Below are positions 42,606 to 42,861 of a stretch of DNA of 64,000 nucleotides, piece by piece; within the stretch, counting starts at the first letter, position 1; every line of letters begins with the position of its first letter. Below the pieces are notes generated by a model that was not told the origin of the DNA, did not search any database, and saw only the letters and a program-made list of their open reading frames with translations. The translations under genes and the position numbers were made by a program. This DNA comes from Rhododendron vialii (taxonomy: Eukaryota > Streptophyta > Magnoliopsida > Ericales > Ericaceae), in contig NC_080557.1 in NCBI RefSeq assembly GCF_030253575.1, positions 43,786,501 to 43,850,500 of the forward strand, written 5' to 3'.

Positions 42606-42613
42606 TATAAATA
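42606..42613 (+). promoter_or_regulatory. TATA box of the MIR390 gene
   Basis: TATAAATA in the context CCCTCTATAAATACACTCC, about 100 bases before the mature miRNA. It is followed by a CT-rich leader typical of plant Pol II start sites, with the start expected near 42635-42645. Confidence 0.65.
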
Positions 42614-42635
42614 CACTCCTTCCCTTCCCTTTCTT

Positions 42636-42861
42636 TCCCCACCATTTTCATCACCCTCGCTCTCAAACATACCATCCAATCATAATACAGTATGGGAGGA
42701 TCTGTAAAGCTCAGGAGGGATAGCGCCACGGACACTACTAATGGCGGCCGCCGTCGTGGAGGAGGGAGGTGGCGCTATCTATCCTGAGTTTCACGGATTC
42801 TTCTTGCTATCGCTCCGGTGCAGCTTTCAGCCTCTGGGATTCGAAATTTCTTTCATCTAGG
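42636..42861 (+). ncRNA. MIR390: MIR390 primary transcript and precursor hairpin
   Basis: The miR390 sequence (first 18 bases AAGCTCAGGAGGGATAGC) lies at 42707-42727 on the 5' arm. The star strand (starting CGCTATCTATCCTGAGTT) lies at 42773-42793 on the 3' arm. The two pair almost fully with 2-base 3' overhangs, and pairing extends outward (GGATCTGT.. with ..CACGGATTC). The loop of about 45 bases contains GGCGGCCGCC. miR390 is an ancient land-plant miRNA loaded into AGO7. It triggers TAS3 tasiRNAs that silence ARF3/ARF4, so it acts in leaf polarity, phase change and lateral roots. A possible splice donor (CTAG|GTATGTG) follows at about 42860, so the primary transcript may have an intron. The transcript ends are inferred; the hairpin itself is clear. 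Confidence 0.93.

Follow-up and report, generated by a model that had tools for sequence, protein, structure and literature searches.

A conserved and ordinary MIR390 gene in a 64 kb stretch of the Rhododendron vialii genome

The window, by which we mean the whole 64 kb stretch of DNA analysed here (C1:43786501-43850500), contains two loci that match Rfam at the gathering score. One is a tRNA at 26891-26961, identified by ARAGORN as tRNA-Gly(GCC), and the other is a MIR390 precursor hairpin at 42693-42805 on the plus strand. The hairpin matches family RF00689 over the full model (positions 1-121) with 89.7 bits and an E value of 8e-19, above the gathering score of 77. The mature miR390, AAGCUCAGGAGGGAUAGCGCC, lies on the plus strand in the 5' arm at 42707-42727 with 0 mismatches, exactly where the preliminary description of this DNA, made from the letters alone, had placed it. 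When the 21-mer was searched in 100 shuffles of the window with up to three mismatches, the mean number of matches was 0.00. That description had also proposed folding 42690-42810 as a check. The arms of these 121 bases pair, the folding energy is -67.9 kcal/mol (z -8.47), and none of 200 shuffles was as stable. The same segment has an MFE index of 1.01 and a G+C content of 55%.

The fold pairs 42707 with 42791 and 42725 with 42773, which places the star strand, CGCUAUCUAUCCUGAGUUUCA, at exactly 42773-42793 on the plus strand with 2-nt 3' overhangs, at the positions and with the overhang given previously. The miRNA/star duplex has a single mismatch, at miRNA position 11 (G42717/A42781), and no asymmetric bulge. 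This geometry lies within the limits for a plant miRNA gene (2-nt 3' overhangs and at most five mismatches), and fewer than five duplex mismatches is also used as a miRNA criterion in PMC8962573. A connection of the position-11 mismatch with AGO7 is not stated in the accessible portions of PMC3516803, PMC6445950 and PMC8962573. Compared with RF00689, the locus shares the full-length model match, the exact mature sequence and the pairing of the arms, but the unshown middle 42 positions of the model correspond to 34 letters here, and position 8 of the star is U instead of the consensus C. Rfam, the fold and the duplex geometry support the presence of a complete MIR390 precursor.

Below the duplex, the first base pair is replaced by an A/C mismatch (42706/42792) just before the mature miRNA. 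The extended stem of the preliminary description was found as a basal stem of 16 pairs between 42689-42705 and 42793-42808 in a fold of 42640-42870, where the four pairs at the bottom are weak (probability 0.54-0.67); only 11 pairs are kept in a fold of 42620-42860. In plant precursors the basal stem is typically about 15-17 bp long according to the accessible part of PMC12782649, and the stem in the window, with up to 16 pairs, is close to this. As described in the same source, Arabidopsis MIR390a has an A18/C89 mismatch directly upstream of the mature miRNA, in the same place as A42706/C42792; the comparison follows the description in that paper. A text search of the literature with letter strings of the basal stem found no published precursor.

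Against the Rfam consensus, the star has one C-to-U change, which retains a G-U pair (42718/42780). The preliminary description had reported this change and the G-U pair, and both were seen, but the variant is not unusual. All 21 letters of the star are listed identically as miR390a-3p in mulberry (PMC5770470) and in hop (PMC5109749), and the U is also listed for date palm (PMC4633500) and rice (PMC3161970), in the parts of these papers that were accessible. For mulberry and hop, the letters of mature and star are the basis of the comparison. Within the genome, the copies on C1 and C13 have U and the copy on C6 has C. A variant already known from other plants is not noteworthy.

The preliminary description regarded the stretch from 28 to 54 kb as free of genes other than MIR390. 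A Pfam scan at E 0.01 covered the 140 longest of the 147 stop-to-stop ORFs of at least 55 aa in the region from 28 to 59 kb. It gave hits to two families, zf-HIT (E 6.4e-12) and DUF3678 (E 0.0015), from a single ORF in each case. The only match to a cysteine pattern in the window places the zf-HIT ORF at 57084-57314, just outside the 28-54 kb stretch, and the ORF resembles the C-terminus of plant SWC6. The DUF3678-matching ORF is one of the 140 in 28-59 kb and could lie within 28-54 kb. Among the 140 longest ORFs there was no confident Pfam-detectable protein gene in 28-54 kb, although domainless or short-exon genes could escape such a scan. For proteins, the earlier view is in agreement with these data, with the one strong match (zf-HIT) apparently at 57 kb. 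The MIR390 gene fills a stretch in which an annotation built on ORFs would probably show nothing.

A search of the genome (13 contigs, 532.6 Mb) for the miR390 21-mer with at most one mismatch gave three sites, on C1 (the window locus), C6 and C13. All three are exact, and the reversed control gave 0. All three copies score above the Rfam cut-off, so that the count of MIR390 loci proposed as a check in the preliminary description comes to at least three. The genome thus holds at least three MIR390 genes, and the window locus is a further copy of a microRNA gene that is ancient and well studied. A plasmid search with 301 bases gave no match.

The window was compared with the surroundings of the C6 and C13 copies, about 120 kb for each. 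The C13 copy is on the minus strand at C13:7026034-7026219. It is accompanied by a tRNA-Gly at 7053967-7054049 (96% over 83 bp) and by laccase matches at about 7009.3-7011.8 and 7000.7-7003.8 kb, which are two neighbouring relatives. The order of tRNA-Gly, MIR390 and laccase on C13 is that of the window (26.9, 42.7 and 59.5-61.6 kb) in reverse. Because these three landmarks are collinear, the arrangement points to the C13 copy as a segmental or whole-genome duplicate of the window locus, with the tRNA being a weak marker. The MEA1-domain and zf-HIT ORFs of the window had no match in the C13 region at E 1e-6 in a plus-strand protein comparison. The two copies have mature, star, TATA block, donor block and collinear neighbours in common, and their basal stems are near-identical. 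In contrast, the distance from the end of the mature miRNA to the start of the star is 103 nt in C13 and 45 nt in C1, the alignment of the two loops is no better than that of shuffles, and the basal stem of C13 lacks the ATG found in C1. The surroundings of the C6 copy (about 120 kb) gave only repeat-like matches to the window and no collinearity. The C6 copy has TATAAAT at -139, and GTATGT, GTAAGT and GTACGT were all absent within 900 bases from its mature start.

A TATA box about 100 bases upstream of the miRNA had been suggested earlier. The word TATAAATA is present at 42606-42613, 101 bases upstream of the mature miRNA. The two strands of the window together have 16 occurrences of it, 8 of them on the plus strand, against 5.6 expected, and because of this excess the word alone is weak evidence of a promoter. 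It lies in a putative core-promoter block on the plus strand (42594-42623) that has 26 of 30 letters in common with the C13 duplicate; the best of 40 mononucleotide-shuffle runs reached 21. Comparison of C1 42596-42643 with C13 by blastn gave a match of 49 bp at 89.8%. MAFFT, run globally on C1 and C13, left the two TATA boxes unaligned, and local matches aligned them. From the TATA spacing, the likely transcription start zone on the plus strand would be 42635-42645.

Downstream of the star, a candidate 5' splice-site block (42847-42866, plus strand) contains AG/GTATGT with the GT at 42861, so the predicted exon end is 42860, the position at which a possible splice donor had been proposed. The sequence AGGTATGT occurs three times on the plus strand of the window, so it proves nothing alone. 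The block agrees with that of C13 in 17 of 20 letters, and the best of 60 mononucleotide-shuffle runs was 16, reached once. For the loops of C1 and C13 the corresponding value was 14 of 20 letters, which 3 of 60 shuffle runs reached. Maintenance of the TATA and donor blocks while the loop diverged supports the presence of a real transcription unit, as judged from the two copies. The C1/C13 pair, with its kept promoter and donor and its diverged loops, provides a small natural test of selection across a primary miRNA transcript. In Arabidopsis, the 5' splice site of the primary transcripts of MIR163 and MIR161 raises miRNA levels, as reported in the accessible text of PMC3701235, and because of this report a plausible role can be assigned to the kept donor. 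Since the loop drifted and the TATA block and 5' splice site were kept, it is possible, if somewhat doubtful, that the splice site located 67-87 nt past the star in C1 and C13 is a selected part that boosts the processing of MIR390.

The known partners of miR390 were searched for in the same genome. A TAS3 locus was first looked for within the window, where the tasiARF 21-mer gave no match at three or fewer mismatches. Genome-wide, the tasiARF 19-mer with at most one mismatch occurs ten times (control 0), and the six loci carrying these occurrences, one per place, were examined. Two of them, C2:210133-210172 (L032) and C4:43483561-43483600 (L033), are of TAS3 type, and each has two tasiARF units 21 nt apart. 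Their 5' miR390 sites, both with central mismatches, have penalties of 3.0 (C2) and 2.0 (C4), below the minimum of 5.0 seen in 200 mononucleotide shuffles. The 3' miR390 sites have penalties of 5.5 (C2) and 5.0 (C4); a penalty of 5.5 or less was also given by 9 of 200 shuffles, so by score alone these sites are within chance. At C2, the predicted cleavage point of the 3' site is 168 and 147 nt downstream of the tasiARF units, which are exact multiples of 21, and at C4 it is 169 and 148 nt downstream, one off the 21-nt register. C2 and C4 thus each have a locus with the arrangement expected of TAS3, in which tandem tasiARFs are combined with two miR390 sites.

The six other one-mismatch tasiARF-type sites are distributed over four loci on C1, C2, C8 and C13. 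At each of these, the first site lies within an ORF (225-327 aa) that contains VLQGQE. In a Pfam scan of six ORFs from the four loci, five matched ARF_AD or AUX_IAA, the latter of which is not specific to ARFs, and the match was above the cut-off at three of the four loci. At the remaining locus (L036), ARF_AD was below the Pfam cut-off (19.3 vs 27 bits) and the site-bearing ORF had no match. ARF-like loci with tasiARF-type sites accordingly number four. We take the C-form tasiARF sites to be targets in ARF genes, and the tandem units of the T form to be TAS3. From these sequences, the other parts of the known MIR390-TAS3-ARF module seem to be present in the genome.

The window locus is a real, conserved and ordinary MIR390 gene, and it is very probably functional. 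The preliminary description had called it an expressed locus; we infer the same, and this view is now better supported because C13 keeps the TATA and donor blocks and because TAS3-type loci with miR390 sites exist in the genome. Transcription by RNA polymerase II would begin near 42640, some 30 bases past the TATA box at 42606, and the transcript would fold into the hairpin, whose basal stem has about 16 pairs. The first cut by DCL1 would be at the base (before 42707 and after 42793) and the second 21 nt above, to release the miR390/miR390* duplex. The splice donor 67 nt past the star probably opens a downstream intron. In Arabidopsis, miR390 associates with AGO7 (PMC3516803 and PMC6445950, in their accessible parts). 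Loading of miR390 into AGO7 would here be expected to lead to binding at two sites of the TAS3 RNA and to the production of tasiARFs against ARF genes.

Three other readings of the locus need to be considered. The genome has three loci with the same mature miR390, so one of them could be dispensable, and the gene in the window might be intact in sequence yet wholly or almost silent, the miR390 of the plant then coming from the copies on C13 and C6. This is unlikely. Both arms of the hairpin are intact, and the promoter and donor blocks were kept in C1 and C13 despite the drift of the loop, which suggests continued use. It is far less probable still that the locus is a dual gene in which the ATG at 42692 starts a miPEP-like peptide of 31 codons in addition to the miRNA. 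That ATG is the first after 42635, and its frame on the plus strand (42692-42787) crosses the hairpin and is open to a TGA inside the star. Cloning primers for Cymbidium MIR390b and MIR390c carry GTATGGGAG at the same place, but the Cymbidium MIR390a primer in the accessible part of the same paper lacks the ATG (PMC8962573). The ATG is also absent from both the C13 and C6 copies, and the peptide would be partly dictated by the fixed letters of the miRNA and star. The term miPEP390 is absent from PMC11819897. A translated ORF through the hairpin is thus unsupported, with the ATG missing in both other copies. Because of this absence, the 31-codon ORF is probably meaningless, and its ATG would be part of the stem and not the start of a peptide.

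The reading with hardly any probability left is that a palindromic transposable element mimics a miRNA hairpin. Several palindromic repeats are present in the window, and folding energy does not separate them from MIR390. Of 3195 plus-strand segments of 121 nt, five have energies of -67.9 kcal/mol or below; one of these is the MIR390 locus, and the other four are in inverted repeats. On the minus strand there are four such segments. Folding energy alone is therefore weak evidence at the MIR390 locus, as palindromic elements fold as well or better. What identifies the locus is its exact miRNA, together with the family model and its paralogues. An exact miR390 and an Rfam E value of 8e-19 are at odds with a transposon palindrome, as are the collinear neighbours around the C13 copy. 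A genome search with 211 bases of the locus returned only itself and at least two arm-length pieces at one C13 locus. The palindrome was rejected because RF00689 fits and because this search found so few matches. It is highly probable, on the sequence as it stands, that the locus is a functional MIR390 gene.

Other elements of the window may be noted. Palindromic elements of about 250-270 bp at 32759-33023, 37656-37920, 44874-45122 and 45235-45506 belong to one family, and their arms are 81-91% complementary in the three palindromes listed. Relatives of these elements occur near the C6 and C13 MIR390 loci. The family looks like a MITE family. The description of the surroundings as transposon-rich holds for such short palindromic elements, but no transposase or reverse-transcriptase family was found by Pfam among the 140 ORFs. 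A MEA1-domain ORF is located at 27200-27721. A laccase gene lies on the minus strand at 59745-61483; its exon ORFs match TIGR03389 with E values of 1.9e-131 and 3.4e-42, each under the whole-protein cut-off. On the other flank of the stretch, three UGT-like (UDP-glycosyltransferase) copies are found in tandem at 0.3-23 kb. In the listed repeat segments, copies one and two are 84-99% alike, and the third is 62-91% alike to the reference copy. Pfam UDPGT was matched by one of two UGT-like ORFs scanned, and an ORF of the third copy matches PDB glycosyltransferases.
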